DNA of 64,000 nucleotides from Fibrobacter succinogenes (GTDB lineage Bacteria; Fibrobacterota; Fibrobacteria; Fibrobacterales; Fibrobacteraceae), in assembly GCA_902756345.1 (NCBI GenBank), contig CACVQR010000007.1:1-64000 (forward strand), in the 5' to 3' direction. The translations under genes and the position numbers were made by a program. Numbering within the stretch: the first letter of the stretch is position 1; each line of letters begins with the position of its first letter. Under the pieces are notes generated by a model that saw only the letters and a program-made list of their open reading frames with translations, was not told the DNA's origin and made no database searches. This document shows positions 23,184 to 46,448 of the stretch, in pieces.

Positions 23184-24176
23184 CTACTTCTTTTTACTCT
23201 TTTTGGGTTTCGTTTTTTTAGCCTTCGTTTTTACGGAGGCTTTTTTCTTTGTTGTAGATTTTTTGGAAGCCTTTTTCTTTCCCTTGACGTTTTTCGTCTG
23301 CTCGGCGGCTGGCTCGGGTTCAGCCGTTTCTTCAGAAGAAATTTCTGCAGGATTGGTTCCTGCAGAGGCTGCCGCCGGCTCGTTTTCTGCGGAAGCCGCC
23401 GCTGGCTGTGCCGTCTCTACAGGCTGCACAGGTTCTGCGGCTTTAGTAGAATCGACAACTTGTTCGGGGGCGGGGGCGACGCTATCTGCTATAGCGGACG
23501 TGTTTTCGCTATCATCGCTGCCATCGTCGAAAGGTTCTTCTTGTACAGCGGATTCGTCCCTCTTTTCGATTCGGTCGTGGGGGTTGTAAATTTTGTCACG
23601 AGTAATTTCGAAACCGATGGATAGGCGGGCGCCGAATTTGCCTGCCGAAATGCGAAAGTTTTGGTCGCTATGTTCGTAGGACTTGAGCACGGAGGCGTAT
23701 TCGTAGTTGACTTCGACGCCGATTCGGTAGGGGAGTATGACACCGAGGCCTCCGGCGACAAAGAAGTCGAAGGGGCGTTCCCACCAGTTGCCGTTAGCTG
23801 TGATGAGGGGGAGAACGCCTACACGGCCCACGGCATAAGGTGAAAAGAAGGCGTCGGTATTGATGCGGCCGAAAGCGAAGGTTCCCCATACGGGAATAGA
23901 GGCGGGGACAATCTTGGTGTGATCCTCTTTTAGCGGACTCTTGTAGCCTGCGCCGAAACCGTAACGGATGGGACTAAATTCGGCGGCGAAGTTCATTTCG
24001 AGTCCGGCAGAGAACTGCTTTTCGCTGTCCCAGTCCCTTTCGGATTTTACGCTTTTCTGGTGGGTGACGATAGATGCGTTGCTGGGAGCATAGCCGTTGA
24101 AAAAGGGCCTGAGCTCCATGGCCAAAACATTGCTGATTAGGCAAGAAATGCAAACGAGTATAAATTTCCTCAACAT
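23184..24176 (-). CDS. Probable outer-membrane protein with Ala/Glu and lysine-rich C-terminal tail
   Basis: Not recognised as a named family. The 330-aa protein has a signal peptide (MLRKFILVCISCLISNVLA). A region of alternating beta-strand character (about 20-195: FNGYAPSN, SAGLEMNFAAEFSPIRYGFGAGY, PFDFFVAGGLGVILPYRIGVEVNYEY, FGARLSIGFEITRD) fits a small outer-membrane barrel. An acidic then Ala/Pro/Glu-rich linker (about 205-295) follows, and the last ~33 residues are almost only Lys, Ser, Thr and Ala, like a histone H1 tail. ATG 24176 is preceded by ACGGGG; a TTG five codons upstream is less likely. It is convergent with maeB (7 bases apart) and divergent from the giant repeat protein gene. 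Confidence 0.7.
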   Translation of the reverse strand: MLRKFILVCISCLISNVLAMELRPFFNGYAPSNASIVTHQKSVKSERDWDSEKQFSAGLEMNFAAEFSPIRYGFGAGYKSPLKEDHTKIVPASIPVWGTFAFGRINTDAFFSPYAVGRVGVLPLITANGNWWERPFDFFVAGGLGVILPYRIGVEVNYEYASVLKSYEHSDQNFRISAGKFGARLSIGFEITRDKIYNPHDRIEKRDESAVQEEPFDDGSDDSENTSAIADSVAPAPEQVVDSTKAAEPVQPVETAQPAAASAENEPAAASAGTNPAEISSEETAEPEPAAEQTKNVKGKKKASKKSTTKKKASVKTKAKKTKPKKSKKK

Positions 24177-24276
24177 AACCCCGTGAATCAAGAAATTTGT
24201 AGCAAAATATAAAAAAATTTCTAAATTTTTTGTAGGGAAAGGCCCCTCTAAAAAAGATCATGTTAGGAGAACATTG

Positions 24277-27200
24277 ATGATTCGTGCATATATTGCATTG
24301 TGCATTTTGTTTGCTTTTAGTTATGCGCAGGCTGTACAAGTTTCCATAGAAGATAATGGCAATGTTTACCTTCTTTCTACAAAAGGGACTAGGGAGTATT
24401 CTGCCGGCGATACCATTCAACTCAGAGCGTCTACTAGAGATGGCTATGCCTTCGATGAATGGAAAATGGATAATGGTGGTGATTGCGTTATTGACGACGC
24501 TCATTCCATGTCGACCTTTGCCACGGCGTATGAAGGCGGCTATTGCCGTTTTAGACCTTACGCCAAAGAACAAAACTATTTTTATACACTGACTCCTGGA
24601 GCAAGTTCCCCTACTAAGCTGGACTTTAAAAAATATTCGACCATGACGATGAGTAGCGTTTATGGCGTCCGCGTAAAAATCGAACAGGGGGCTAAGAGGG
24701 TGGTTCTTTCCATTTCGAACTATACCCACAAAAAAAGCGTATATAAAAGCCATAGAGGTTTTGATAGCGGAATGTATTCGGGAGGAAATTTCTCAAATGG
24801 TCGACTCGTTTTTTATAGTGATGAATATGAGTACAGTTCTACTCCTTATGATTACTATATCGCTATTCCCGAGGAAAACATTGATAGCGAAGACAAAACG
24901 GCTACGGTTCAGGCGTTTTTAGCCTATTATTTGTCAACTAAAGTGGAGGGCGGCGGTTCTGTTAAACTGGGTCCCTCTGGGAGTGTCCTTATTGAAGGCG
25001 ATACGCAAACTGTTTCCGCCACTCCGAATAAGGGCTATCGCTTTGGCCACTGGAAAACGACCGGCGGCTGCTCTGTTGACGATGAAAATTCTGCCACGGC
25101 GACCATTACCATGGGTGCAAACGATTGCGTTGTCACGGCGGTGTTCAATACGGGCGAAGTCTTTGAACTTTCTTCGACGCCGAGGTCTTTCAACTTGGCC
25201 AAAGATGCTTTCTTGGTAGACGGCAATTATGATTTGCGTACCGTATTCAAGGCACCGGCAACCGGCACCTATGTGATTCATGTAAAGACCAATAGAAGTA
25301 TCAAGTACATTGACAATGGACAAAGTTCCTCATTTAACGCGACCACGGTAAAGACGCTTGCTAGTAATGGACAAATCTCCTTGAGCATGAGTGCGGGAAA
25401 GTCCAACTATATCTTGTTCCGCCAACTGGAAGACTACGGCACAGATGATGTTGAACTGGTGGTGAAGCGAAAATATGCTTTACGCTATGATGTTTATGGC
25501 TCAGGAAGCTATAGCACGAAGAATTGCGACCCCGATTCTTCTTACACGATTACTGCGGGATCTGTGTATGGAAAGATGTTTGACAAATGGAACGTGGTGT
25601 CGGGTACCTGCGAAATAGACAATGAGAACCTTGTGACTGCAAAGGTTCAACTTTCTACGGATTGCTCTGTCAGGGCACAATTTAAAGAGGCTCCCATTCT
25701 GCCCATTACCGAAACCCCCGTCACCTACAAGTTTAGTGTCGATGGCTATGCCAGCGGTTCCAATTACAGAATAAATACGGGATTTGTCCCGACAGATTCC
25801 GGTACCTACAGGCTCACGATTAAACCGGCTCTCTCGACTTCTTTTTATTTGTATGATGATGGCTCCGACAAAACGTTCCCCTCTACAACCGGTAAAAGCT
25901 ATAGCGGAACTGCGACCAAACAGGTTTTCTTAGGAAGCGTCAATACAGACGGCCGGTACCTTCTTTTTAGCACTGGTGCCTCGCAATCCTTAACGCTCAA
26001 CGTCGACCGTACTTACCATATAGAGCTTGTTGGTGACGAAGGTGTTTCTGCCAAGTTTGAAAACGGTTCTTCCCACGACACGACGCACATTAATGGCGAA
26101 ACCATACAAATTACCGCCAGTGCGTCTAGCGGAAAGAGATTTTCGTACATGAAGGTGACTTCGGGTAACTGCACCTTGAGCGACACCGCTGCCCAGAATG
26201 CAAAAGTGACTGTCGATGGAGATTGTAAAATAACCGTATTCTCGGAAGACGATGGTGGTGTTTATCCGATTTCTACAACGTCTTCGAAATTCAACTATGC
26301 CATTCACCGTTCTGAAATCGGTTCAAGTTTTGGCATCAGGACCGTGTTTACGGCGCCTGAAGACGGCGGGTACACTCTTTTTGTAAAAAGTAGCCTGTCG
26401 AACAATGTTTGGGCTTACGACGAAACCTTTACCACAAGGAGTAGCCTCTCGTCCAATGCGTTTAGCGCCACTGAAGGTGAAAAATATTATTTCTACTTGC
26501 AAAGCACCAGTTCTTCCTATTCTCCGGACAAGAACGACACTCTCTCGGTATGGGTTGTCAAAAACGTAAACGTGAGTTCTGCAGTTTCGGGAGCGGGAAC
26601 CGTTAAAGTCAATGGCAAATTGGGTTCCAGCGACGACAAATTTGCCGGAGATTCCATTTCGATTGTGGCGACTGCGGACGATGGGTCGCGTTTTGACCAT
26701 TGGGAAAAAGTTTCTGGTTCCTGTACGATTCGCGATACGGCAAAGGTTAGCACCTTCGTGGCGCTCGCCGGGGATTGCAAGGTAAAGGCGTTCTTTGTAG
26801 AAGGCAAAGTTTTTGAAATTAGCGAAACTCCCAAATGGTTCAATTTCCTTAAAGACGGTGTCATGCGCGACGGTTATATGGGTATACAGACTTCTTTCGA
26901 TGTTCCGACTGCGGGAACCTATAAGTTTGTTACGTATTCTAACACGACCAATTATTATCGTTACCTTTATTCCGATGAAACTTTTGAAGGGGGGACCTAC
27001 AAGTCTTCTAATGTTGATGCCATTGCGGAGGCCGGCAAGCATTATTATGTGTTCCGTGATTATCACAATGTCTCGCAGGTCACGTTTGCCGATTCCATAT
27101 TGATTTCGGTGAAACGTACTTACCGGGTTCATATAGATACCCTGGGAAAAGGCGATGTCACAATCAATGGCTATTACCGTTATGACGATTCTACGGCTGC

Positions 27201-30200
27201 TGCGGGGGATACCCTTCGGCTTGTTGCCACTCCATACACTGGTTATAAGTTCAAAAAGTGGGATATTGTCTCGGGTTCTTGCTCCTTGTCCGATAAGGCG
27301 TCGGCTACGACAACTGTCACGGTCAAGGGGGACTGTAACCTTAAAGCTCACTTTGTTGCAGGTGAAATCTATAGCGTTACCGATACACCCGAGGAATACA
27401 CCTTCAAAGACAATTATTACAGTGGCTCAGCAACTAATGGCGTTCGTTTCCGTTTCGTTGCGCCGGATGACGGTAAGTTCGGTATTGTGGTAAAACGTAA
27501 AAATCAAGCTAACTATGTTACATATTACAAGTGCGCTAATGCGGGCTGCACAAGTACCTCTACTTCCAGAAGTGTGTATACCGCTTATATAGACTCTGTA
27601 ACCGTTTCAAAGGGCGACTCGGTAAACTTCAAAGTGGTGCCCTACAGTGTCGCTATCGCCAACGGGGATACTATTTCGGTCCATTATGTAGATTTGAATG
27701 AAAAACGCCTTGTCATAAAACTCCTGGCTGATTCCTTGGGGACAGTTACTCCCAGCGCGGGCTATACAGATGTGATTTCTGGCATGGACTACAGTATTGA
27801 CGCTGCGGCGACTCGCTTTGGTTACCGATTTGATCAATGGAGTGTGAAGTCCGGTAATGCGACTATTGCGAATAAAGATACTAGCCATACATTTGTCAGC
27901 ACGACCAACGATGCCACCGTTCAAGCTCACTTTAGAAAAGGTGATATCTATGAAATTGACAAAACGGTAAAGTCTTTTGTTTTTAGCACTGACTACTATT
28001 CCGATTCTGTTTACCGCAAAAAATATGAAGTGGCGTTGAAATGGACTCCTCCCGATACGGGAACCTTTATCTTGGATATTGAAGCTCCGCAGGCAAGCGT
28101 GTATGTGTACGCTTTTGGCAGTAGTTCCACATTCAGGTCTTATAATACCTATAAGAGTTTTAGTAATAAGTACAGCTTCCCTGTTACCGTAAAAAATAAG
28201 GGTGAAACACTGTATTGGACCGTTGCTCCCAATAGCTCCAGCTATTTTAACAATTCATTTACGGCGACTATACGGGGCTCGGTATCCCTGAAGGTTGTCG
28301 CTGGCAGCAATGGATCTATATCGAGTTATTCGGAAATAAAACTTGGTGCAGGTCAAGATACTACCGTTACCGCCTATGGAAATATGGGCTATCTCTTTGA
28401 CGAGTGGCGAGTGGTTTCGGGCGGTGCGTCTATAAAGAACCCGACTTCACGCTCTACCAAGGTGACTGTCAACAAGGACGCTGTTATTGAAGCCTCGTTC
28501 CGTAAAGGTTCCATTCAAGATATCGGTTATGACGAAAGTGAGTTTACATTCTATAAGGACAAGTATACCGACAACAGCAGATTCAACAACTATGTATTCA
28601 TGACCTGGACCGCTCCTGATTCTGGTGTGTACTTTATTGATTTCGATATTTCGGGATACAGCTATCTCTATAGTTTTGGTACGGATTCTACGTTCTCAAG
28701 ATCTTCTTCGAAGTATTACTATTCCGGTAAGAACAGCTTCGCTTTCACGGGTGCTTCGGGTATTCCGCAGTATTGGGCCTTGGGACCTTATTATGCTAGC
28801 GACAGTTCTGGATCCAGTAAAGTAAAAATAAGCAGGGGGTATGAACTTTCCGTTAATGTTGATGCTTCTATGGGAACGATTAATACGGATAGCAAGATTG
28901 CTCTGCATAAAGGACGTGATACAATCATTACGGCCAGCAGCAAGGTGGGGTATTTCTTTGACGAGTGGAGTAAAGTTTCTGGTAGTGTGACGATTGGCGC
29001 TTCAACCCAGCGTTCGACAAAGGTATCTATCGAAAGTGATGCTACGGTAAAAGCGAAGTTCCATAAGGGACCTGTTCAGAAAATTGGAACAACAGCAAAG
29101 ACCTTTACCTTTAATAAGGACGCTTTTACGGACCATTCGAGCCATCTGTATGATGTCGCCTTGACATGGACCGCTCCGGATTCTGGCTGGTATTACCTGG
29201 AAATTGAAAGCCCTGATAGTAACATTACCCGTGGCTACCTTTGGAACTATGGTACGGATTCTACCTTTAGAGGTTCCTATAGTACCTACACCTTGCCTGT
29301 CACATACCTGTTCCAGGGGACTGCCGGGGTGCCCCAGTATTGGTCTTTCCAACGGTATTATTCTGCGGATTCCAGTAAACGCATTACGGTGAAAATCGTA
29401 AAGTCCGCTCAAATCATGGTTGTCTCGGATGGTCATGGAACGGTGACGCCCACAACTCCGAAACCTGCAAGTCCGACGAGCACGGTAAGCATTACCGCAA
29501 CATCGGATTTCGGATACAAGTTCAAGGAGTGGGCTGTTACGTCTGGCACCCCGGATATCGGAGATACCAAGAGCGCAAACACCACGGTAAAATCTGCGGA
29601 CAATGCCACCGTCAAGGCTACCTTTAACAAGGGTACTATACACACCATCGGCGCCACCTCCAAGGACTTTGTCTTTGCTAAAGACTACTATACCGACACC
29701 ACCGGGTTCAAAAACCAGGTGTTCATGTCTTGGACCGCGCCTGATACCAACTGGTACTTTATAGAAATCTCTGCCGATTCTGGCGTTAATCTTAATTTAT
29801 ACAGCTACGGAACCGACTTGAAAAATAGGACCGGCCGTTTGAAAAAAGTGAACGGGAAAAGCATTTTGTCCTTCCAGGGAACAAAGGGTGCGGTGCATTA
29901 CTGGTCGCTTGGTCCCGTGCTCGCTCGCGATAGCCTTGCGGAATTTTCTGCAAAGATTGCCATTCCGTACGTGCTTACAGTCGAGTCCGATAATCATGGT
30001 ACGTCACATCCCAACGGGTCCATCGTTTTGCCTTCGGGCGGCGACACTACCGTCATGGCCATTCCGTACGGCGGATATGTTTTCAGCAAATGGTCCGTAA
30101 CCAAGGGGAATGTGACCATCGCAAACCCCACAAGTGAAAAAACGAAAGTAACCCCCATCGATACAACTTGTTCCATAAAGGCAAATTATGTAGTGGACCT

Positions 30201-33200
30201 GACCACCGTTCCGAAAGTTGACATTCAAGGAATCAACACTGCCGACCATCCTAGAATTTGCAGCATCGTTTCTGTGGTGGATTCCAACAGCGGAAAGTCG
30301 ATTTTCGATTTGGATTCTTCTGATTTCGTTTTATTCGAAGACGGGAAATCTCTCCCCGCAACTGTCACAAGCCCGAAAAATGTGATGGGCGTATCCGTCG
30401 TATTTGTTGTTGACGAAAGCGGCTCCATCGGTGCCATTCAAGATGCGGCCAGAGAATATGTAACCCGTTTTGTGAACGAAATGGAGGAGTTCGATAGGGT
30501 TGCCATTATCGGCTACGTAGATACCGTTCGAGTGGTGCAGGGCTACACGGCCGATAAGGACAGCCTCTTAGGTGCCGTGAAACGGCTAAAGTTTACCGGG
30601 GCGTACGAAGACATCGCCCTCGGTGCCTACAAAGGTGTGGAACTCGGGGCCGATTTAGGCGGACCCAAGGCAATCATCGTATTTTCGGACGGTAGATCCG
30701 ACCATAAATTATACACGGCTTCTACTGTTGTAGCGCTTGCCGAGAAATATGCGACTTCCATCTATACTATCGCGTTCAAAAAAAGCGCAGAATATTCCAC
30801 CTCGCATTCCAACTACGGCTTCGACATCTTGCAGGACATGTCCGCAGGAACGGGAGGTCGCTATTACGAAACGGCGGGCATTACGGAAACGAGGGAAATC
30901 CTTGCCCAAATCCGTCATGACATGCAAACCCGTTACACGGTATGCTACACGACGCCGGATACGATAATCGATGGCGACATTCACCATGTTAAAATCGGCG
31001 TCAGCTATCGCGGCAAAAAGGCTTCCGATACGGCGAGCTGGCGAGAGGATTTCTTGCCGCCTAAGGTGACTTTGACTAAGGCGACCGCGGGCCTTGTGGG
31101 CAAGGAACTTAAATCGGATTCCTTGAATATCGGCGTTCTCGTTTCGTCTAGAATCTCCATGAAATCCGTGAAGGCTTTTGTCCGCACGCATGGAGATACG
31201 TTGTCAACATATAAGCAACTTACCATGAGAAAAGTGAAGGATAGCACTTGGACGGTCACGGTTCCTGAAGACTATCTGGTTTCTCCGGGTGTTGATTTTT
31301 ATGTGACGGCGACGGATTCCCTGGGGCGTGATGCAAGCACACCTTCTGTTGTTTCCCCGGAAAGAAATCCGTACACCATTTATGTCAAGAACCTTAAATC
31401 CAGCATTGCGCTTTTGACAGAAGGTTGTGTGGATACGCTTCAAACCGAGGTGAAGTTGAGTTTTGAGGTACGCGACATTGAAGGTGTCAGCTCGGCAAAG
31501 CTTTTGTATAGAAACAGCGACAAGGTGCCTTTCGATACTTTGCCTATGGTGCGCCGTAGCAGAACCAGCGATTACTGGGACGTGATGGTGCCTTCAAAGG
31601 CGTTTGGCAGAAGCGGACTGCAAATCAATGCCGAGGCGTGGGATGTTCTGGGCGAAAAGACCACTTGGCTTACCACAGAGAGAGTCTTGATTGAGGGCTG
31701 CGAAGCTCCGGCCGCTCCAGATGAAAGGGACCGTATCAAAATCGTAAATGCGGATTCTGCCGGAAAGTCTATCAAAAGATCGACGAAAAAGATCAGGTTG
31801 ACTCTAGAAAGTCAAGATTTTACGCGGGGAAAGGATACTCTTAAGGTTTCGCTTTCTTGTCTCTCTTCTGGCGATATTGAAAGCGACCTGAAGGTTGCCG
31901 AAAAGAAGCCCGGCTATTACGAGATTACAAAGGACATCGAGAAAAATGAATATGCGCCGAAACGCGGTGACGGAAAGATTTCTTGCGATGCTACGGATAC
32001 CCTTGTAGCGGAATTCAAGGATCCTGTGTACAAGACCATCGCCCGCAAGAGCGTCGTGGTGTCCGATGACATCGAAATCGCTTACCGTTTCTTGAAAAAG
32101 AAAGGCGGGGCGGATTTGGATTCTGCAGAAACCACCGACAGCGTGGCGTTTGTACTCCGCGTTACGGCCGAAAGCAAGTCGATGTATGACCGCGATACGA
32201 TCAAGGTCATTCTGTTCACTGATACCGGCGATACCATTAAGCTTAAGGCTGTAGAAACCGATGTGTATTCTTCGGAATTTGAAGTGAAATCGGCGTTCTA
32301 CTATGTCGAAGACAAGAAGGAACTGAAAAGTAAGCGCCTCGATGCTGTTTTCGACTACAAGAGTTCCGATAACCGCATCAAGATTTATGCTGAGGTCGAT
32401 GGCGACGAGTCTTCGTTAAAGTCCCGCGACTCGCTGATTGTCTATTCCGATTATTCTGCTGCAGACTATGCCGAAATTTACGACAGCGACAAGGATGGCC
32501 GCGCCGATTCCGTTCGCATTCACTTTATCGAGCGCCTTTCCGAAAATATCGTAAGCATCGATACGGTCTTTTGGAATGCTGCCGGAAAGACGTGGAAAAA
32601 GGCGTCCAAGAGCAAAATGCACTTGAGTGAAGATTCCCACTGGGTGGAATCCATTATCAAGGACCCGTTCGATTACGGCGTGACCTTTGCCGATAAGGAC
32701 AAAACCCCTTACTTGCGCATGACAAAGACTGCTGCCGACCGCCCGCAAAAGGTGGAACTCCGGGATAAAATTGGCCCGGTTCCCGTGAAGGCGGAAAAGC
32801 ACCCTGGCCGTGTCCCGACTGTGGAATACATTGAGGAATCTTACGGCATTCCGCCCGACACCTTGTTCGTAGAAATGTCCGAACCGATTTCCACCAAGGA
32901 AAAGAAGGAACCTTGGAAAAACTTGTTCCGCTATTCCGCTCGCTGCTCCGATACGGCGAGCATGGCACTGCGCGTTCAAGGTGAACCGAAGGTTAGCGAA
33001 TCTGGCAAGGAATGGACGATTGTCCTTAAGGACAACAACTTGCTGGTGGACAACTGCATTCGCACAAACCCCGCCTCGGGTTATGTTGACCCTCAAAAGA
33101 ATGCCGTTGGAATTGGAGGCGTGTCGGTGGGCGGCCAGAACAGCGATATTTACCTTTACGAGGTGTCTTCCAATATTCGCCTTTTAAAGAAAGATAAGAA

Positions 33201-33549
33201 ACCGAAGTGGATACCCCCTGAAGAAGAGGAATGGGAACCTGTTCCTGATTCCTTGCAGACGATCCGCATTTCGTCTATTGCCCCGTACAAGGCCCGCGTC
33301 ATTATTTACGATAACTATTCCAATGTGGTAACATCGTTTAACCAAACATTCACCAAGGAAGAAATGGAAATGGATTCCCGCGGTAATGAAAACGACCATT
33401 CCAAGCTAGGATTTCTTTATTGGAACGAGCGCAGCTCCGAAGGTCGCAAGGTGGGTGACGGCGTGTACATCTGGAGAATTGATTTCAAGTTTAACGATGG
33501 TCACAAGGAATATCGACTGCTCAAGACCGGCGTGAAACGCCACAAGTAA
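24277..33549 (+). CDS. Giant secreted multi-repeat protein with VWA domain (~3,090 aa)
   Basis: Signal peptide (MIRAYIALCILFAFSYAQA), then eleven InlB-type B repeats whose FxxW cores lie near nt 24440, 25034, 25573, 26131, 26685, 27244, 27823, 28390, 28951, 29515 and 30076, a period of about 560 bases (187 aa). Between them are beta modules resembling pre-peptidase (PPC) domains (FxFxxDxYTD...WTAPDSGxYxxxI). Repeats 2-6 carry a conserved Cys pair; 7-10 have none. A VWA domain follows (near nt 30190-30960) with MIDAS residues in FVVDESGSIG and FSDGRSD. The last ~850 residues are Ig-like and Lys/Asp-rich. They end in GDGVYIWRIDFKFNDG, like FlgD/T9SS-type C-termini. AGGAGA precedes ATG 24277. 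Likely an adhesin or surface fibre protein that binds a ligand or metal; the target is unknown. Confidence 0.85.
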   Translation: MIRAYIALCILFAFSYAQAVQVSIEDNGNVYLLSTKGTREYSAGDTIQLRASTRDGYAFDEWKMDNGGDCVIDDAHSMSTFATAYEGGYCRFRPYAKEQNYFYTLTPGASSPTKLDFKKYSTMTMSSVYGVRVKIEQGAKRVVLSISNYTHKKSVYKSHRGFDSGMYSGGNFSNGRLVFYSDEYEYSSTPYDYYIAIPEENIDSEDKTATVQAFLAYYLSTKVEGGGSVKLGPSGSVLIEGDTQTVSATPNKGYRFGHWKTTGGCSVDDENSATATITMGANDCVVTAVFNTGEVFELSSTPRSFNLAKDAFLVDGNYDLRTVFKAPATGTYVIHVKTNRSIKYIDNGQSSSFNATTVKTLASNGQISLSMSAGKSNYILFRQLEDYGTDDVELVVKRKYALRYDVYGSGSYSTKNCDPDSSYTITAGSVYGKMFDKWNVVSGTCEIDNENLVTAKVQLSTDCSVRAQFKEAPILPITETPVTYKFSVDGYASGSNYRINTGFVPTDSGTYRLTIKPALSTSFYLYDDGSDKTFPSTTGKSYSGTATKQVFLGSVNTDGRYLLFSTGASQSLTLNVDRTYHIELVGDEGVSAKFENGSSHDTTHINGETIQITASASSGKRFSYMKVTSGNCTLSDTAAQNAKVTVDGDCKITVFSEDDGGVYPISTTSSKFNYAIHRSEIGSSFGIRTVFTAPEDGGYTLFVKSSLSNNVWAYDETFTTRSSLSSNAFSATEGEKYYFYLQSTSSSYSPDKNDTLSVWVVKNVNVSSAVSGAGTVKVNGKLGSSDDKFAGDSISIVATADDGSRFDHWEKVSGSCTIRDTAKVSTFVALAGDCKVKAFFVEGKVFEISETPKWFNFLKDGVMRDGYMGIQTSFDVPTAGTYKFVTYSNTTNYYRYLYSDETFEGGTYKSSNVDAIAEAGKHYYVFRDYHNVSQVTFADSILISVKRTYRVHIDTLGKGDVTINGYYRYDDSTAAAGDTLRLVATPYTGYKFKKWDIVSGSCSLSDKASATTTVTVKGDCNLKAHFVAGEIYSVTDTPEEYTFKDNYYSGSATNGVRFRFVAPDDGKFGIVVKRKNQANYVTYYKCANAGCTSTSTSRSVYTAYIDSVTVSKGDSVNFKVVPYSVAIANGDTISVHYVDLNEKRLVIKLLADSLGTVTPSAGYTDVISGMDYSIDAAATRFGYRFDQWSVKSGNATIANKDTSHTFVSTTNDATVQAHFRKGDIYEIDKTVKSFVFSTDYYSDSVYRKKYEVALKWTPPDTGTFILDIEAPQASVYVYAFGSSSTFRSYNTYKSFSNKYSFPVTVKNKGETLYWTVAPNSSSYFNNSFTATIRGSVSLKVVAGSNGSISSYSEIKLGAGQDTTVTAYGNMGYLFDEWRVVSGGASIKNPTSRSTKVTVNKDAVIEASFRKGSIQDIGYDESEFTFYKDKYTDNSRFNNYVFMTWTAPDSGVYFIDFDISGYSYLYSFGTDSTFSRSSSKYYYSGKNSFAFTGASGIPQYWALGPYYASDSSGSSKVKISRGYELSVNVDASMGTINTDSKIALHKGRDTIITASSKVGYFFDEWSKVSGSVTIGASTQRSTKVSIESDATVKAKFHKGPVQKIGTTAKTFTFNKDAFTDHSSHLYDVALTWTAPDSGWYYLEIESPDSNITRGYLWNYGTDSTFRGSYSTYTLPVTYLFQGTAGVPQYWSFQRYYSADSSKRITVKIVKSAQIMVVSDGHGTVTPTTPKPASPTSTVSITATSDFGYKFKEWAVTSGTPDIGDTKSANTTVKSADNATVKATFNKGTIHTIGATSKDFVFAKDYYTDTTGFKNQVFMSWTAPDTNWYFIEISADSGVNLNLYSYGTDLKNRTGRLKKVNGKSILSFQGTKGAVHYWSLGPVLARDSLAEFSAKIAIPYVLTVESDNHGTSHPNGSIVLPSGGDTTVMAIPYGGYVFSKWSVTKGNVTIANPTSEKTKVTPIDTTCSIKANYVVDLTTVPKVDIQGINTADHPRICSIVSVVDSNSGKSIFDLDSSDFVLFEDGKSLPATVTSPKNVMGVSVVFVVDESGSIGAIQDAAREYVTRFVNEMEEFDRVAIIGYVDTVRVVQGYTADKDSLLGAVKRLKFTGAYEDIALGAYKGVELGADLGGPKAIIVFSDGRSDHKLYTASTVVALAEKYATSIYTIAFKKSAEYSTSHSNYGFDILQDMSAGTGGRYYETAGITETREILAQIRHDMQTRYTVCYTTPDTIIDGDIHHVKIGVSYRGKKASDTASWREDFLPPKVTLTKATAGLVGKELKSDSLNIGVLVSSRISMKSVKAFVRTHGDTLSTYKQLTMRKVKDSTWTVTVPEDYLVSPGVDFYVTATDSLGRDASTPSVVSPERNPYTIYVKNLKSSIALLTEGCVDTLQTEVKLSFEVRDIEGVSSAKLLYRNSDKVPFDTLPMVRRSRTSDYWDVMVPSKAFGRSGLQINAEAWDVLGEKTTWLTTERVLIEGCEAPAAPDERDRIKIVNADSAGKSIKRSTKKIRLTLESQDFTRGKDTLKVSLSCLSSGDIESDLKVAEKKPGYYEITKDIEKNEYAPKRGDGKISCDATDTLVAEFKDPVYKTIARKSVVVSDDIEIAYRFLKKKGGADLDSAETTDSVAFVLRVTAESKSMYDRDTIKVILFTDTGDTIKLKAVETDVYSSEFEVKSAFYYVEDKKELKSKRLDAVFDYKSSDNRIKIYAEVDGDESSLKSRDSLIVYSDYSAADYAEIYDSDKDGRADSVRIHFIERLSENIVSIDTVFWNAAGKTWKKASKSKMHLSEDSHWVESIIKDPFDYGVTFADKDKTPYLRMTKTAADRPQKVELRDKIGPVPVKAEKHPGRVPTVEYIEESYGIPPDTLFVEMSEPISTKEKKEPWKNLFRYSARCSDTASMALRVQGEPKVSESGKEWTIVLKDNNLLVDNCIRTNPASGYVDPQKNAVGIGGVSVGGQNSDIYLYEVSSNIRLLKKDKKPKWIPPEEEEWEPVPDSLQTIRISSIAPYKARVIIYDNYSNVVTSFNQTFTKEEMEMDSRGNENDHSKLGFLYWNERSSEGRKVGDGVYIWRIDFKFNDGHKEYRLLKTGVKRHK

Positions 33550-39542: not shown

Positions 39543-41624
39543 TTACTTCAGAATCACCTTCTGCATGTAGCGCTGGCTGCCCTGGCGAACCATGAGCATT
39601 GCCGGACCGCGATAGTTGCTGGAAAGTTCAACTGTGTTCATGCCCTTGTTGGCGGTAAAGTTCTGCTGGGCAATCACCTGGCCGAGGCTGTTCAAGAGCG
39701 TTGCCTTTGCCGGAGCCGTCTGGGCTGCTACAAAGTTTGCGCTCACCATGCCGGGCTGCACGTTCACGAACATCTTGCTTGCCGCGGCAACGGTTGCGGT
39801 CTTGATGGCTTCAGTGCCGTTGAGGGCGACAATCTTACCGGATGCTGTACCTTCGAGCTGCGGTTTCTTGTCAAAGTCGTCAATGATTTCGGTAGAACCG
39901 TCGGCCTTGATACCCTTGATGTAGTCAAAGGTGATGGTGCCGGTGACCTGTGTGCCGTAGAGGTTCAGGCCGATGGCGTTTGCAGAGTTGAGGTCGGTCG
40001 GTTCTTTGCGGAAGTCTTCCCACTTAACTTGGATTGTCTGGAATGCGCTGGCATCGAGGTCCTTGTCGGCCTGTTCCACAACAGAGGCGTCGAACCAAGC
40101 CCAGCTTTCACCCGTCATCATGAAGAGGTCCATGGAGGTCCAGCCGTATTCGCCGCAGCCATCGCTTGCGCCAGTGCAGGGGCCTGCAGTAGCAACTTCG
40201 CCCTTCAAGCGAACTTCAATACCCACATACTTGGAAAGATCCTTTTTCGCACCCTGGAGATTGATACGCAATGTACCCACTTCGCTAGAATCGGAAGTTA
40301 CAGTTTGGTAAGTCACCTGGACGCCCTTGCCAGCTGCGGTTTCGGGAATGTCCGGGTTCTGGGTAACGATAGAATCAATGCTGTTGCCTGGGAGAGATGC
40401 CTGGCCGTAAGCTTCACGCATGGCGTTCAAGGTTTCGACGTCGGTAATGTCGCCGACGTTGCCACCGAACTTGTTCACCTGGCGGCGGATGATGGTGAAG
40501 TTGCCATCGCCTTCGTCACCGGTATCCCATACGCAAGGAACGAGGCCATTCTTCTTGGCTGCGGCGACCGTGTAGCCGTACCATGCGGCGCGTGCCTTCA
40601 GGTGAACCTTCAGGTTATCACCGGTGAGGACTCCGAGACGCTTGACGGCACCCATTTCACCAATCACAACAGGAATGCCCTTGTCGTAGAAACGGCTCTT
40701 GAGTCCGCTGAACAATTCATCGATCGATTTTTTGGAACCGAGGGCGGAGCCGGAACAGGTGTGTGCAGCGTCATTGCCCGGAGTCTGGTCTTCCCAGTAG
40801 TAGAACATCTTGCCCCAGTCTTCGTCACCGCTGGTCATCAAGGAGAACTGATACGGGTAGAAGTGGACTTCGGCCATGGTGTAGCCTTCGCCTGCCGGGT
40901 CAGTCGGGTACATGGACGCGAGCAACGGAGACTTGTCAATTTCGGTACGCGGAGACTGCACGACCACGATACGGGTTGCGTTGTTTCCGCCGGTAGAACG
41001 CACTGCCTTAAGGCATGCTTCGTGATAGCTCTTGAGAACCTGCATGCGGGCTTCGTTGAATGCCCACTGACCATTGTCGGAACCGCCGTTCCACGGGTCG
41101 TTCACGCCCGGTTCGTTGGCAGATGCAAAAATCAGGTGTTCGTCGTATTCGGCGAACTTGGTTGCAATCTGCTTCCAGTAGCTTCCCTGCTTGGCGGCGA
41201 TATCGGCTGCAGAAACAGTCACTTCGCCGGTCTTGTCGAAGCCCTTGCCGTCAAAAACATGGTCTTCGAGCCAACCGCCGTCCCAGTGGCTGTTCAAAAT
41301 GGCGTACATGCCGTTATTGATAACGAGATCAACGACGGTCTTTACGGAGTCAAGCCAGCCGGCATTAATCGTGCCGTTAGAGGCGTGGCTGTCCCAAGCG
41401 CAAGGAATACGAACGGTATTGAAGCCGGCGTCCTTGATTGCCTTCACGTAAGCGGCATCCGGGAAGGGGTTGCCCCAGTCGGTCGGGTTCTTGGGCACTT
41501 CCATGGTGTTGCCGATGTTGTAGCCGAGACCCATGTCGGGGTAAATCTCGGTTGCCTTGGGGAGAGCGAATGCAGCGGTGGCTGCCAAGCCGAAGGCGAT
41601 ACCAAACATTCCAAAACGTGTCAT
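39543..41624 (-). CDS. GH5 cellulase with CBM-like module and T9SS-type C-terminus
   Basis: Secreted endoglucanase, 693 aa. Signal peptide MTRFGMFGIAFGLAATAAFA; GH5 catalytic domain about 30-370 with GLGYNIGNTMEVP, RIPCAWDSH, acid/base Glu171 in FASANEPG and nucleophile Glu323 in VVIGEMGA. Residues about 395-560 form a beta-sandwich (GTLRINLQGAKKDLSKYVGIEVRL, ITFDYIKGIKADGSTEIIDDF) like CBM11/CBM30-type cellulose-binding modules. The last ~75 residues (LLNSLGQVIAQQNF, MNTVELSSNYRGPAMLMVRQG) resemble a type IX secretion sorting domain. AAGGAGT lies before the ATG. The neighbouring gene at 41831-43396 is a paralogue in tandem. It should cleave internal beta-1,4-glucan bonds on the cell surface or outside. 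Confidence 0.93.
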   Translation of the reverse strand: MTRFGMFGIAFGLAATAAFALPKATEIYPDMGLGYNIGNTMEVPKNPTDWGNPFPDAAYVKAIKDAGFNTVRIPCAWDSHASNGTINAGWLDSVKTVVDLVINNGMYAILNSHWDGGWLEDHVFDGKGFDKTGEVTVSAADIAAKQGSYWKQIATKFAEYDEHLIFASANEPGVNDPWNGGSDNGQWAFNEARMQVLKSYHEACLKAVRSTGGNNATRIVVVQSPRTEIDKSPLLASMYPTDPAGEGYTMAEVHFYPYQFSLMTSGDEDWGKMFYYWEDQTPGNDAAHTCSGSALGSKKSIDELFSGLKSRFYDKGIPVVIGEMGAVKRLGVLTGDNLKVHLKARAAWYGYTVAAAKKNGLVPCVWDTGDEGDGNFTIIRRQVNKFGGNVGDITDVETLNAMREAYGQASLPGNSIDSIVTQNPDIPETAAGKGVQVTYQTVTSDSSEVGTLRINLQGAKKDLSKYVGIEVRLKGEVATAGPCTGASDGCGEYGWTSMDLFMMTGESWAWFDASVVEQADKDLDASAFQTIQVKWEDFRKEPTDLNSANAIGLNLYGTQVTGTITFDYIKGIKADGSTEIIDDFDKKPQLEGTASGKIVALNGTEAIKTATVAAASKMFVNVQPGMVSANFVAAQTAPAKATLLNSLGQVIAQQNFTANKGMNTVELSSNYRGPAMLMVRQGSQRYMQKVILK

Positions 41625-41756
41625 TTTGACTCCTTGAATTTGTTTACCTTCTTGAAATTAAATTCTATACGGATTCAAGTAAATAAAATTGTGTCGGTGT
41701 TGAAAAATTGCGGTGCTGAATTCTCAACAAATGTAAACTTGAATTTACTTTGAGAA

Positions 41757-41793
41757 AGAAAAATTGCCGATTTTTAGCGAAAATCGACAATTT
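41757..41793 (-). terminator. Intrinsic terminator after the second GH5 gene
   Basis: On the minus strand AAATTGTCGATTTT pairs with AAAATCGGCAATTT across a short loop and is followed by T6. It separates the two cellulase genes, so each has its own transcript end. Confidence 0.75.
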
Positions 41794-41830
41794 CTGTTAA
41801 TGAGGAAACCTTCGTTTAGTGTAGAGGATT

Positions 41831-43396
41831 CTATTTCACATCAACAAGCAACGTCTTGTTGGCACTTTTGGCCAAGTATACGCCCTGATGGAGTCCCATG
41901 AGCGAAAGTTCGGTGCGTCCGGCGCTTTTTTTGGCTGAGCGAATCTGGTTTCCGTTGATGTCGAACAGGCGAATGGGCTTGTTGGAATAAAGTATGCTGC
42001 CGTTGCGAGTGAATTGCACCGTAGAATTCAGGCCGGCGATGATTGTCGTCGTGGGTGCGCTAGAGCTAGACACGGCTTCGCTCGAGCTAGAGGCGACTTC
42101 GCTGGAGCTAGATGCCGGAGTGGAACTTCCGCCGGTGATGTAGTCTTCGACGTGGGTCACACCGGTGTTGTTATAGTTGCCGAGGTTGTATACGCTGCGC
42201 ATGGCGTTGATGACGTCGGTTTCAAGAACCTTGCCCACTGGCGAAGACTGACGGCGGATGTAGGCCATGTTGTCGTAGCCAGAATTGCTCTCGTTGCCCA
42301 TGTCCCAAAGGATCGGCGTGAGCCCGTACTGCTTGGCGGCGCTCACCACGTCTTTGTGCCACTGCACGCGGCCCTGCTTGTGTAGGTTCAGGTCGTTGCC
42401 GCTCAGTTCCGGAGAGCGCACGTTGGCGCCGAATTCGCCCACGATTACCGGATAACCTTTATCCACGTAATTCGTCTTCATTTTGGCAAACTGTTCTTGC
42501 GGGTGAACGATGCTTCCGAGTTTGGAATCTACGGAGCCTGCCCAGGCATTGTAACCCGCGTTGCGCTTGGGTTCACTCGCCTTGGTGTAGTCGCCATAGT
42601 AGTACTGCGGCAGAATGGGCTCGCTCGCGCCCCAGTCCTGCTGGCTAGTCATAAGCGTGTACTGGTACGGATCGTAGTAGTGCACTTCGAACATCAGGCG
42701 GCTTTCAACGTTGTCTTTCGGAAAGGTTGTCACCGGGGCGTTCGCGACGGACTTATCGATGTCGGTGTTCAAACCCTGAATAATCAGAGTGCGGGTGGCG
42801 TTATTGCCGCCTGTGGCGCGGACTGCGTCAATGAATGTCTGGTAGTAATGCATCAGCGTGCTGACGTGTTGGGCCGTCCAGGTGTTTACATTCGGGCCGG
42901 GTTCGTTCGCACCGGCAAACATCAAACGTTCGTTGTAATCCTTGAACTTGTTCGCAATCTGCGTCCAGTAAGTCTTCATCTTGTTGTCGACGGTCGAGTT
43001 GACGCTCGTGCTGATGTTAGTCTGGAACCAGCCGCCTTCACCCTCGTGGTGAATGTTCAAAATTGTGTAGAGGCCTGCGCGCATGGCGTAGTCGACCACC
43101 GTTTTCACGGAGTCAAGCCAAGTTTCGGTGACCTTGCCGCCGCTCGTGTGGCTGTCCCATGCGCAGGGAATTCGGACCGTGTTGAAACCAGCTGCCTTTA
43201 CGGAGTCGAGCAATGCCTGAGTCGGGTAGGGGTTGCCCCAGGCAGTGGGGTTGTTCGGAACTTCCATGGAGTTGCCGATGTTAAAGCCCATGCCCATTTT
43301 GGCCTGGACTTCCTTGGCGGTGGGGAGCGTCGCTGCCGTTGCAGAAAGGGTTCCTGCAAGGGCAAAGAGGGCTGTTTTTGCAAAAATATGCTTCAT
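41831..43396 (-). CDS. GH5 cellulase with Ser-rich linker and T9SS-type C-terminus
   Basis: Secreted endoglucanase of 521 aa. The signal peptide is MKHIFAKTALFALAGTLSATAA. The GH5 domain (about 30-405) has GMGFNIGNSMEVPNNPTAWG, RIPCAWDSHTSGG, acid/base Glu165 in MFAGANEPG and nucleophile Glu321 in VIVGEFGA. A serine-rich linker (SSSEVASSSSEAVSSSS) leads to a short C-terminal module (FDINGNQIRSAKKSAGRTELSLMGLHQGVYLAK) typical of type IX secretion or cell-surface sorting. It lacks the large CBM-like module of its tandem paralogue. Start: ATG 43396 with AAGGACC upstream; a frame open 78 codons further upstream shows no signal peptide and overlaps polA, so it is rejected. Confidence 0.93.
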   Translation of the reverse strand: MKHIFAKTALFALAGTLSATAATLPTAKEVQAKMGMGFNIGNSMEVPNNPTAWGNPYPTQALLDSVKAAGFNTVRIPCAWDSHTSGGKVTETWLDSVKTVVDYAMRAGLYTILNIHHEGEGGWFQTNISTSVNSTVDNKMKTYWTQIANKFKDYNERLMFAGANEPGPNVNTWTAQHVSTLMHYYQTFIDAVRATGGNNATRTLIIQGLNTDIDKSVANAPVTTFPKDNVESRLMFEVHYYDPYQYTLMTSQQDWGASEPILPQYYYGDYTKASEPKRNAGYNAWAGSVDSKLGSIVHPQEQFAKMKTNYVDKGYPVIVGEFGANVRSPELSGNDLNLHKQGRVQWHKDVVSAAKQYGLTPILWDMGNESNSGYDNMAYIRRQSSPVGKVLETDVINAMRSVYNLGNYNNTGVTHVEDYITGGSSTPASSSSEVASSSSEAVSSSSAPTTTIIAGLNSTVQFTRNGSILYSNKPIRLFDINGNQIRSAKKSAGRTELSLMGLHQGVYLAKSANKTLLVDVK

Positions 43397-43462
43397 TTTC
43401 GGTCCTTTTTCGAAATACGCCCTTAATTTATACCTAAAAATTTGAAACGTATCGTATAATAA

Positions 43463-43538
43463 GTAAGGCCGTTCAAAAACTATTGAACGGCTTACAACGT
43501 ACGAAAAGATTTGGTTACTATGTAAATCTTTTTTTTTG
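43463..43538. terminator. Two hairpins between polA and the GH5 gene
   Basis: GTAAG-GCCGTTCAA...TTGAACGGC-TTAC (43463-43495) is a long stem with one bulged G and lies downstream of polA on the minus strand, without a T tract. AAAAGATTT...AAATCTTTT (43504-43532) is followed by T on the plus strand, where no gene ends. Confidence 0.5.
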
Positions 43539-43586
43539 ACGAGTGCTTCGGGTACGTACTTAGTGTGACTGGGCACGAGCGGTCTG

Positions 43587-46448
43587 TTAATGTGCCACGA
43601 GCCAGTTTTCGCCGAAGCCGACGCTTGCAACGAGCGGAACCTTGAGTTGCATGGCGCCTTCCATTTCGGATTTCACCATCTGGGCCATCGCTTCTACCTG
43701 GTCGCGGGGGCATTCGAATACGAGTTCGTCGTGCACTTGCAGCATCATGCGGAGCGGCAGGTTTTCTTCGTTGATTCGCTTCTGGATGCGGATCATCGCA
43801 ATCTTGATGAGGTCTGCGGCGGAGCCTTGGACGGGAGTATTCACGGCCATGCGCTCGGCCATTTGCGATTCCATGCGGTCGCTAGAGTCGATGCCTGCAA
43901 TGTAACGGCGGCGGCCCGAAAGCGTTTCCACGTAGCCGTCGCGGTGGGCGGCCGCCTTGATGTCTTCGATGTATTGCTGCACGCCCTGGTACATGTCGAA
44001 GTAGCCGGTGATAAAGTCCTTCGCCTGCGACATCGGAATTTTCAGGTCGCGGCTCAAGCGGAAGGCGGTCATGCCGTAGAGTACGCCGAAATTCACCACC
44101 TTGGCATCGCGCCTCATGTCGCTCGTGACGGCGTCTAGGCCAACCCCGTAAATCGCGGCGGCGGTGCGGGCGTGAATATCGATGCCTTCCTTGTAGCTTT
44201 CGATGAGCGCTTCGTCTCCGCTCAAGTGGGCGAGCATTCTGAGTTCAATCTGCGAGTAGTCCACTGCAAGGATGACGTTATCCTTACTCTGCGGTACGAA
44301 TGCGGCGCGGATTTTTTTGCCGAGATCGCTACGAACGGGAATGTTCTGCAGGTTTGGATCGCGGCTCGAAAGGCGGCCCGTCGCAGTACCCCACTGGATA
44401 AAGCTCGTGTGAATGCGCTTGGTATCCGGATTCACCAGCGTGGGGAGCACCGAGATGTAGGTGCTCTGCATCTTCTTGAGTTCGCGGTACTCGATGACGG
44501 CAAAAACAATCGGGTGCGGCGCCTTGTAGCTGAGTTCTTCGAGAACCACGGCGTCGGTACTGCGCTTCTTGATTTCGGGGAGCCCAAGCGTGTCGAAAAG
44601 CACGTCGCCCAGCTGCTTTGGACTTCCGATGTTGAACTCGACGCCCGCCATATCGCAGATTTCCTTTTCCAGATTCTCGATGCGGCGGCCCAGTTCCTGC
44701 TCCAGCGTCTTGAGGGCCGGAACATCAATCGCCACTCCCACGGATTCCATTTGGTACAGTACCTTCAGCAAGGGCATTTCCTGCTCGAAGAAATACTTCA
44801 CATAGTCGAGCTTTTCGAGTTCCTGCTTGAGCGGCTTCCAAAGGCGGAGCGTGTAGACTGCGTCTTCGGCGCCGTATTCGGTGGCTTCCTTGATGGGCGC
44901 GCGGTTGAACGTAATCTGGTTTTTGCCGCGACCAATCAAGTTCTCAATCGGGATCATCTCGTGCTGTAGACGCTGCATCACTTGGTTGTCGAGCCCGAGG
45001 CCGGATTGCCCCGGCGAAAGCATCCAGGCGGCAATCAGCGTGTCGATGATGTTTGCGTTGTCGATAACGGATTGCGGAATCTTGAATGCGCGTGCGAGAA
45101 CATGTAGGTCGAATTTCGCGTTGTGGAAAACGAATTCGCGAGGAATATTTGCGCCTGCGGCGGGTGTGGTGTCGGCGAAAAATTCGCAGAACCATTCCTT
45201 GACCTTGTTCAAGTCGTAATTGCCTTTGGGGCCTGTCGGCAGCGGGAATCCGATTTCATCGGAATGACCGAGCGGAATGTAGTAACCCTTGTTTACTTTG
45301 CCGTCGTTGTCGGCTGCGGCTAAGCAGAGCCCTACCAAGTTGCACTGCATCGGGTCGAGCCCGTCCGTTTCGGTATCCACGCCAATAAGCGACGATGCGG
45401 CAAATTCCGCCTTCATCTGCTCAAAGATTTCGTCGGTATCAACGCAAATGTACGGCGGCGGAACATCGACTGCAAAATCTGCGCGTTCCACTTCTGCGCC
45501 CGTTGCATTTTCGTCGCCTTCTGCACCAACGTTATTCGGGTCGCCTTCCCGCACGAATCCCGCCTTACTCGGGACTTTCTCGAGCAGGCGCAGCAGGCTG
45601 TTGATTTCGTGGTCCTTGAACATCTGCGCCAAGGTATCCACATGCAGACCGTTATATTCAAGCGCATCTAAATTTCCGCTAAAGGCGCGCTTGGTCTGGA
45701 GCGTCACCAGTTCTCGGCTGAGGAATGCCTTCTCGCGGTTGTTTGCCAAATTGTCGTGCAAACCCTTCTTGGTAATCTTGTCGAGGTTCGCGTACAGGTT
45801 GTCCATGTCGCCGTAATCGTTCAGCAACTGGATGGCGGTTTTCGGGCCTACCTTCGGAACGCCTGGAACGTTGTCGCTTGCGTCACCCATGAGCGCCAGG
45901 TAGTCGCGGATTTTTTCCGGTGGGAGCCCGTATTTTTCGAGCACCTGTTCTGGGCCAAAGTCAATACCGTCGGCGCCCTTTGTCAGGTGGAAAAGGTGAA
46001 TCTTGTCGCTTACAATCTGCGACATGTCCTTGTCTTTGCTCAAAATCACCACGTGGTCAAAGCCCGCTTCCACGGCGGCCATGGCGGTACTTGCCATCAC
46101 GTCGTCCGCCTCGTAGCCCGGTTCCGACAAGAGTGGAATTCCGCTCGCTTCAAGACTTTCGCCAAGGAGCGGCATCTGCGCCGCCATCTCTTCGGGCATG
46201 GGGCCGCGATTCGCCTTGTAGTCCGGGTAAAGTTCGTGCCTGAAAGTCTTTGTGTGCGCCACATCGCGTGCAATCGCAAAATGCGTCGGCTTGTGCTGGG
46301 CCAAAATGCGGAGCACCGCACCCCAGTAACCGTGCATCATCGAAACCTCTTCGCCCAGGCTGTTTTTCAGCGGGTTTTGCGAATAGGCGTAAAACATGCG
46401 GAACGCAAGCGCGTAGGAGTCGAGCAATAGTAAAGTCTTTTCAGGCAT
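43587..46448 (-). CDS. polA: DNA polymerase I
   Basis: Repair and Okazaki-processing polymerase, 953 aa, with all three domains. The 5' nuclease (about 1-300) shows LLLLDSYALAFRMFYAY, YEADDVMAS, LSKDKDMSQIV and GDASDNVPGVPKVGPKTA. The 3'-5' exonuclease has GVDTETDGLD with Asp/Glu and FHNAKFDLHVL, so proofreading looks intact. The polymerase domain has RLSSRDPNLQNIP, VDYSQIELRMLAHLSGDE, RRDAKVVNFGVLYGM (O helix) and LQVHDELVFE. An acidic linker (about 308-330) joins the first two domains. The ATG at 46448 starts MPEKTLLLLDSYA. The gene appears monocistronic, 26 bases downstream of the ATPase gene. Confidence 0.96.
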   Translation of the reverse strand: MPEKTLLLLDSYALAFRMFYAYSQNPLKNSLGEEVSMMHGYWGAVLRILAQHKPTHFAIARDVAHTKTFRHELYPDYKANRGPMPEEMAAQMPLLGESLEASGIPLLSEPGYEADDVMASTAMAAVEAGFDHVVILSKDKDMSQIVSDKIHLFHLTKGADGIDFGPEQVLEKYGLPPEKIRDYLALMGDASDNVPGVPKVGPKTAIQLLNDYGDMDNLYANLDKITKKGLHDNLANNREKAFLSRELVTLQTKRAFSGNLDALEYNGLHVDTLAQMFKDHEINSLLRLLEKVPSKAGFVREGDPNNVGAEGDENATGAEVERADFAVDVPPPYICVDTDEIFEQMKAEFAASSLIGVDTETDGLDPMQCNLVGLCLAAADNDGKVNKGYYIPLGHSDEIGFPLPTGPKGNYDLNKVKEWFCEFFADTTPAAGANIPREFVFHNAKFDLHVLARAFKIPQSVIDNANIIDTLIAAWMLSPGQSGLGLDNQVMQRLQHEMIPIENLIGRGKNQITFNRAPIKEATEYGAEDAVYTLRLWKPLKQELEKLDYVKYFFEQEMPLLKVLYQMESVGVAIDVPALKTLEQELGRRIENLEKEICDMAGVEFNIGSPKQLGDVLFDTLGLPEIKKRSTDAVVLEELSYKAPHPIVFAVIEYRELKKMQSTYISVLPTLVNPDTKRIHTSFIQWGTATGRLSSRDPNLQNIPVRSDLGKKIRAAFVPQSKDNVILAVDYSQIELRMLAHLSGDEALIESYKEGIDIHARTAAAIYGVGLDAVTSDMRRDAKVVNFGVLYGMTAFRLSRDLKIPMSQAKDFITGYFDMYQGVQQYIEDIKAAAHRDGYVETLSGRRRYIAGIDSSDRMESQMAERMAVNTPVQGSAADLIKIAMIRIQKRINEENLPLRMMLQVHDELVFECPRDQVEAMAQMVKSEMEGAMQLKVPLVASVGFGENWLVAH

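Follow-up and report, generated by a model that had tools for sequence, protein, structure and literature searches.

A giant repeat protein of Fibrobacter with an exchangeable VWA domain and an adjoining barrel-like partner gene

We analyzed a stretch of 64,000 nucleotides from Fibrobacter succinogenes (contig CACVQR010000007.1, positions 1 to 64,000; hereafter, the window) and found that it encodes a giant protein whose VWA head, as judged from sequence comparison, is exchanged between lineages while the arm before it and the tail after it are kept. We hold with moderate confidence that this giant is a cell-surface adhesin or receptor, probably exported by the type IX route, with an exchangeable VWA recognition domain and held by a small barrel-like partner. 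Fibrobacter is a leading degrader of fiber in the rumen, and its surface attachment and recognition of neighbors are poorly understood; the family described here, in which the binding domain is exchangeable and the outer-membrane partner dedicated, supplies a concrete set of genes for deletion and of domains for assays. Among the listed papers that name both Fibrobacter and von Willebrand, none appears from its listing to be on this topic.

The giant gene is intact and its arm is built of eleven B repeats

The initial annotation of the window had described a secreted protein of about 3,090 aa at 24277–33549, and we confirmed the start (ATG, 24277) and stop (33549) of this forward-strand gene, on which all features of the giant given below lie. 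Residues 1–19 (24277–24333) form a signal peptide, read by eye (MIRAYIALCILFAFSYAQA; orthologs are 89–95% identical). The annotation had also named a degraded pseudogene as the finding that would speak against it; we reject that possibility, since the frame has no internal stop over 3,090 aa and dN/dS is well below 1 (~0.4 in the repeat array and 0.08 at the C-terminus), indicating purifying selection.

Eleven InlB-like B repeats with a period of about 560 bases had been proposed, and they are borne out: PF18998 (Flg_new_2, divergent InlB B-repeat) matched the giant in 11 stretches (E = 4e-87; 286.6 bits against a gathering cut-off of 23.6) with a mean spacing of 187.8 aa, that is, 563 bp. Our own profile made from the 11 B repeats recovered the same 11 and, in between, ten beta modules of ~110 aa. 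The alternation of B repeats and beta modules was therefore correctly seen, but the label PPC-like that had been given to the latter found little backing: they have no Pfam PPC match even at an E of 10, and their top PDB profile match, the C-terminal part of a protease (1wmd), is weak (E = 0.05). Copies of the B repeat share only 18–44% protein identity, so the array is of old origin and escapes repeat finders that work on DNA; a tandem-repeat search at the DNA level found none.

The cysteines divide the arm into two blocks. Block 1 (B1 to B6 with L1–L5; residues 20–1028; 24334–27360) carries a Cys pair in each B repeat, including B1 (C70/C90), for which the initial annotation had not claimed one, and is followed by beta module L6 (residues 1029–1144; 27361–27708), which has a Cys pair of its own (C1086/C1091). 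Block 2 (B7 to B10 with L7–L9; residues 1145–1785; 27709–29631) is without Cys, as had been noted. In the segment that follows (L10 and the last repeat B11; residues 1786–1972; 29632–30192), B11 keeps the second Cys only (C1965), like most relatives. In trees of the window's modules B7–B11 cluster together, as do L7–L10, with moderate support, which makes a duplication lineage of its own the likely origin of the block without Cys; the two blocks thus look like two duplication lineages of the repeat within the ortholog group of the window. The same pattern is present in the same-layout orthologs at loci L102 and L108, whereas in other giants of the family repeats with and without Cys alternate, and giants without a full VWA domain carry the Cys pair in nearly every repeat. 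The block arrangement is therefore real in this giant but specific to its ortholog group, and not a general design rule. Quantification over 258 family repeats revealed that both Cys positions were filled in 114, both were empty in 107, only the second was filled in 36 (mostly in repeats adjoining the VWA domain) and only the first in a single repeat. This co-occurrence supports Cys–Cys pairing, although the Fisher p value computed from it does not count as a true probability, the repeats being mutually related.

The VWA head and its metal site

The VWA head, including its N-terminal strands, spans residues 1973–2250 (30193–31026) and contains the DESGSIG and FSDG motifs reported earlier. PF00092 matched it with an E of 6e-14 (53.2 bits against 23.8), and it scored above the cut-off of NCBIfam TIGR03436, an acidobacterial VWA subfamily whose model spans the VWA region only and not the architecture of the giant. 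The VWA fold itself was recovered by structure prediction: an AlphaFold model of L10-B11-VWA-Ig (585 aa; pLDDT 82) matched known VWA structures, including the inter-alpha-inhibitor heavy chain and Mfa5, with Z of ~20–22, and a VIA structure with a Z of 21.8 over 167 aligned residues at 1.9 Å. This model and that of the region after the VWA domain, discussed below, are usable per domain, with a pTM of ~0.5 and a domain packing that they leave unfixed. Mfa5, the VWA tip adhesin of Porphyromonas type V pili, resembles the head in fold (Z 20.9) and is likewise a secreted surface adhesin, but it is a pilus subunit and its solved part is without such a B-repeat array.

C1995 and C2223 are present in nearly all of 43 aligned heads. 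As for the MIDAS, the head retains D2046-x-S2048-x-S2050 and D2138 and departs from the complete motif (DxSxS, T, D) at the Thr, which is replaced by E2111; this Glu is shared by the ortholog in genome G079, and most relatives keep the Thr. Given this loss, metal-dependent binding is unsure for the window protein. MIDAS residues are also lost in two other giants (L119:1928–9652, VVDEYYGRD; L044:6504–10763, VVDEGDDGW). The head of the window clusters with that of G079 (86% identity) and is at most 45–48% identical to any other head.

The head is exchanged between lineages

We compared the giant with L108, an ortholog of the same 11-repeat layout. Identity was 64–95% in the arm, 88–95% in the C-terminal 340 aa and 94–95% in the last 240 residues, and dropped to 39% in the VWA domain. 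Synonymous divergence was dS ~0.2–0.3 along the array and C-terminus and was saturated over residues ~1855–2266 (29839–31074), where nucleotide identity fell to as low as 46–63%. Saturation of synonymous sites in the head argues for replacement by a divergent allele, as fast protein evolution cannot produce it. Since the head tree does not reject a distant sisterhood of the window head and the L108 head, the case for exchange in this pair rests on the jump in dS.

A second pair, G078 and G005, gave the same picture with support from trees. These giants are 95–99% identical in arm and tail, their partner proteins are almost identical, and their heads are only 59% identical; dS is ~0.05 for most of the gene, rises to 1.0–1.7 in residues 1201–1520 and stays at 0.55–0.95 on to residue 1840. 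The closest head to that of G005 is the one of G035 (75%), although the arms of G005 and G035 are only 43% identical. The tail tree unites G078 and G005 with full support, whereas sisterhood of their heads was rejected (AU p = 9e-26). A tandem pair in G031 showed a like trend (arm 70, head 53, stem 77 and C-terminal domain 92% identity).

These cases come from few genome pairs and mostly from draft assemblies, several of them in tens to hundreds of contigs, and repeated domains favor misassembly. We nevertheless consider an artifact of assembly or binning highly improbable as the source of the exchange: two independent cases were found, in which the breakpoints fall close to domain boundaries and the reading frames are intact; the G005 genome, at 100% completeness, comprises only about 10 contigs; and the heads of the window and G079 concur at 86% identity.

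The exchange could also have been driven from outside. If the exposed VWA domain served phages or predators as a receptor, escape could produce wholesale head replacement, and also the presence or absence of the giant beside its partner gene at one conserved locus (the partner stands alone at L101, L109 and L110); the giant's own job, adhesion to plant fiber or biofilm, would need no change of head. The arm and Ig stem, however, should be at least equally exposed and are replaced less, and we regard this explanation as rather unlikely. Head exchange together with a barrel partner suggests a surface recognition protein pressed to change its binding target, and because it is the VWA domain that differs by replacement from lineage to lineage, this domain is the best candidate for the seat of specificity.

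A barrel-like gene accompanies the C-terminal part of the giant

Upstream of the giant and divergent from it lies a gene on the reverse strand (23184–24191) for a protein that measures 330 aa when translated from its ATG (24176), with an outer-membrane beta-barrel-like domain of ~200 aa, an acidic/Pro-Ala linker and a Lys-rich tail. The linker and tail are present or absent among the aligned relatives of this protein. The 100-bp intergenic region (24177–24276) is possibly a shared promoter region. The conserved partner gene and the exchanged head are the two most telling clues to the giant, yet neither had been noticed in the initial annotation, because one sequence alone cannot show either.

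Pfam OMP_b-brl (PF13505) matched the window partner weakly (E = 0.11) and one relative better (E = 4e-4). We rejected the partner as a PorP/SprF protein by profile searches, as PF11751 had 0 matches in the window genome, partner included. Homologs of the partner adjoin giants at most of the fetched loci, mostly in divergent orientation 68–127 bp apart and otherwise convergently at 1–94 bp. They also adjoin giants lacking a full VWA domain (L111, L117, L118 and L043), indicating that it is the C-terminal part of the giant to which the partner belongs. In tandem arrays of giants a single partner stands beside several giants, and the dispersed extra giants at L044, L048, L107 and L104 have no partner within the fetched stretch. 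Conversely, a partner without a giant occurs in three genomes, that of the window among them, at a transketolase-like locus that elsewhere bears both. The copy in the window genome is a second homolog (41%; G000:C7:135884–136918; L101:7882–8934).

Export is probably by the type IX route

The region after the VWA domain had been described as about 850 aa of Ig-like sequence, and this description agrees with our AlphaFold model (836 aa; pLDDT 79), in which the ~840 aa are all-beta with Ig-like matches. We assign residues 2251–2950 (31027–33126) to an Ig-like stem, whose first domain matched the C-terminal domain of Porphyromonas PPAD in a fold search (Z 14.2 over 103 residues), and residues 2951–3090 (33127–33546) to a basic C-terminal domain (CTD), which is 95–97% identical among orthologs. 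This last domain matched the PorZ CTD (5m11, residues 685–776) with a Z of 7.9 over 88 aligned residues at 3.0 Å, a likeness that may be one of common arrangement only.

The window genome encodes SprA (1,104.6 bits) and has 61 matches to TIGR04183, 54 of them over the cut-off, in agreement with the proposal that Fibrobacter cellulases are type IX exports (PMC6851124). The giant is not among the 61, its CTD reaches none of the curated type IX CTD models searched, and the two matches to TIGR04131 in the genome, both below the cut-off, lie elsewhere. Comparison of the giant's CTD with the type A CTDs of the genome by hhalign aligned 19 columns at 57% probability; this comparison is weak, as two or more tails in the set were wrong (L153 was off-frame, and window ORF 62143 has a non-CTD end). 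In Flavobacterium and Porphyromonas, adhesins with a type B CTD need a cognate PorP/SprF-like barrel that holds them and whose gene often neighbors theirs (PMC9143113; PMC12618676). The giant is probably exported by the type IX system. By analogy, the constant company of its CTD and a small barrel would suit such a role, with the partner as the Fibrobacterota counterpart of the type B CTD barrel.

The likeness to SprB/SprF and other type B adhesins extends to a giant repetitive surface protein, a C-terminal domain, an adjoining gene for a small outer-membrane barrel and SprA in the genome. It ends at several points: the CTD of the giant is below the TIGR04131 cut-off, the partner has no PF11751 match and a barrel of only about 200 aa, the Fibrobacter pair is divergent or convergent where the SprB/SprF type has substrate then shuttle, and the giant carries an exchangeable VWA cassette. 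Should the partner prove to be a shuttle, Fibrobacterota would have their own solution to type B-like export, built on a barrel whose relation to PorP/SprF, if any, profile searches do not show.

A polymorphic toxin was rejected as a reading of the giant: the variable part is internal, the C-terminal 140 aa are the most conserved and Pfam found no toxin domain. In the same window, two tandem GH5 cellulase genes lie at 39543–43630, and one or both of their products end in a type IX-like tail.

Proposed arrangement and function

In the mechanism that we propose, the giant would enter the periplasm through its Sec signal peptide and probably cross the outer membrane through the type IX system, its CTD remaining bound to the divergently encoded small barrel, as in SprB/SprF. 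The initial annotation had inferred a rigid stalk that carries a binding head. If the giant sits in the membrane by its C-terminus, as type IX substrates do, the VWA domain would not stand at the tip of a stalk: the order from the membrane outwards would be CTD, Ig stem, VWA domain and then the long N-terminal arm with its 11 B repeats and its 10 beta modules. The stem would raise the VWA domain above the surface, and the arm would reach farther out. The VWA domain would set what the giant binds. Specificity would change by homologous recombination with related genes, which would swap the VWA domain together with the last B repeat (in one case also some of the Ig domains after it) and retain the parts for export and anchoring.

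Fibrobacter must attach to fiber, and the giant may be a plain adhesin for plant cell wall or mucin whose heads follow diet or host, with exchange incidental to frequent recombination between paralogs. The GH5 cellulase genes lie 6–10 kb from the giant, and paralog arrays in other genomes could act as templates. We find this reading quite unlikely: Pfam found no carbohydrate-binding module in the giant, the window genome holds no second VWA copy of the family as a recombination partner, and the main text of a paper on the envelope proteome of cellulose-grown cells does not mention a VWA protein.

Alternatively, the head might bind identical heads on neighboring cells, as a self/non-self receptor in the manner of TraA of Myxococcus; the barrel partner would then correspond to TraB. 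TraAB of myxobacteria (PMC6372800) offers an analogy, and only that, in its parts: a polymorphic recognition domain, a conserved Cys-bearing body that ends in a C-terminal sorting domain, and an adjoining partner gene with an outer-membrane barrel. The variation of head alleles against a conserved remainder would also suit such a receptor. However, there is no family match to parts of TraA or TraB (neither a PA14-like domain nor MYXO-CTERM, nor an OmpA domain in the partner, was matched by Pfam or NCBIfam), and the giant has its VWA domain in mid-protein, unlike the N-terminal PA14-like domain of TraA. The VWA form is present in only 29 of 80 genomes, and the many different heads in some single genomes look more like a repertoire than like a single tag of identity; we consider this reading fairly improbable. 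A broader proposal, in which swapped VWA heads define self/non-self or partner choice in a polymorphic recognition system of Fibrobacter, displayed by a dedicated type IX route whose barrel shuttle would be of a new class, and with arrays of different heads in some species, strikes us as unlikely. We keep to an adhesin or receptor with an exchangeable recognition head. The VARTIG modules of Thermococcales (PMC8416519) are also large Ig-containing proteins with one region made hypervariable by recombination, but they are archaeal, it is their C-terminal Ig domain that varies, and variable downstream genes accompany them.

Relatives across the genus

The initial annotation had named no described Fibrobacter attachment protein with this layout, and the layout proved to recur in the genus: of 80 genomes, 29 have relatives of the VWA head, and at the threshold used one genome has as many as 12 copies. 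The Ig/C-terminal part is more widespread (35 genomes of the genus, with pieces also outside the family but within the phylum). The ortholog closest to the window giant comes from the metagenome-assembled genome (MAG) Fibrobacter succinogenes RUG14497 (87% over the head), and a search of named genomes returned one MAG ortholog, one distant VWA protein of Acidobacteria and nothing more. In the G079 copy (L102:1–9412) the contig ends within the last residues.

Some VWA copies form head-to-tail arrays of ~1,580-aa and ~2,490-aa proteins. Tandem arrays of 2–4 giants were seen at L029–L030 (G031:C173), L031 (G031:C36), L032 (G008:C9) and L034–L036 (G013:C6 and G048:C51), in genomes whose VWA copies number up to 12. 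Two giants have stems with tandemly expanded Ig domains, in units of about 115 aa and 240 aa (L039:5660–14746 and L046:3315–10928). Beside 2,480-aa giants we observed a cassette of 5–8 alike small secreted proteins (L033:413–3777 and L120:765–6174), whose mature forms start with AQEMDTTF or AQEPPAYY.
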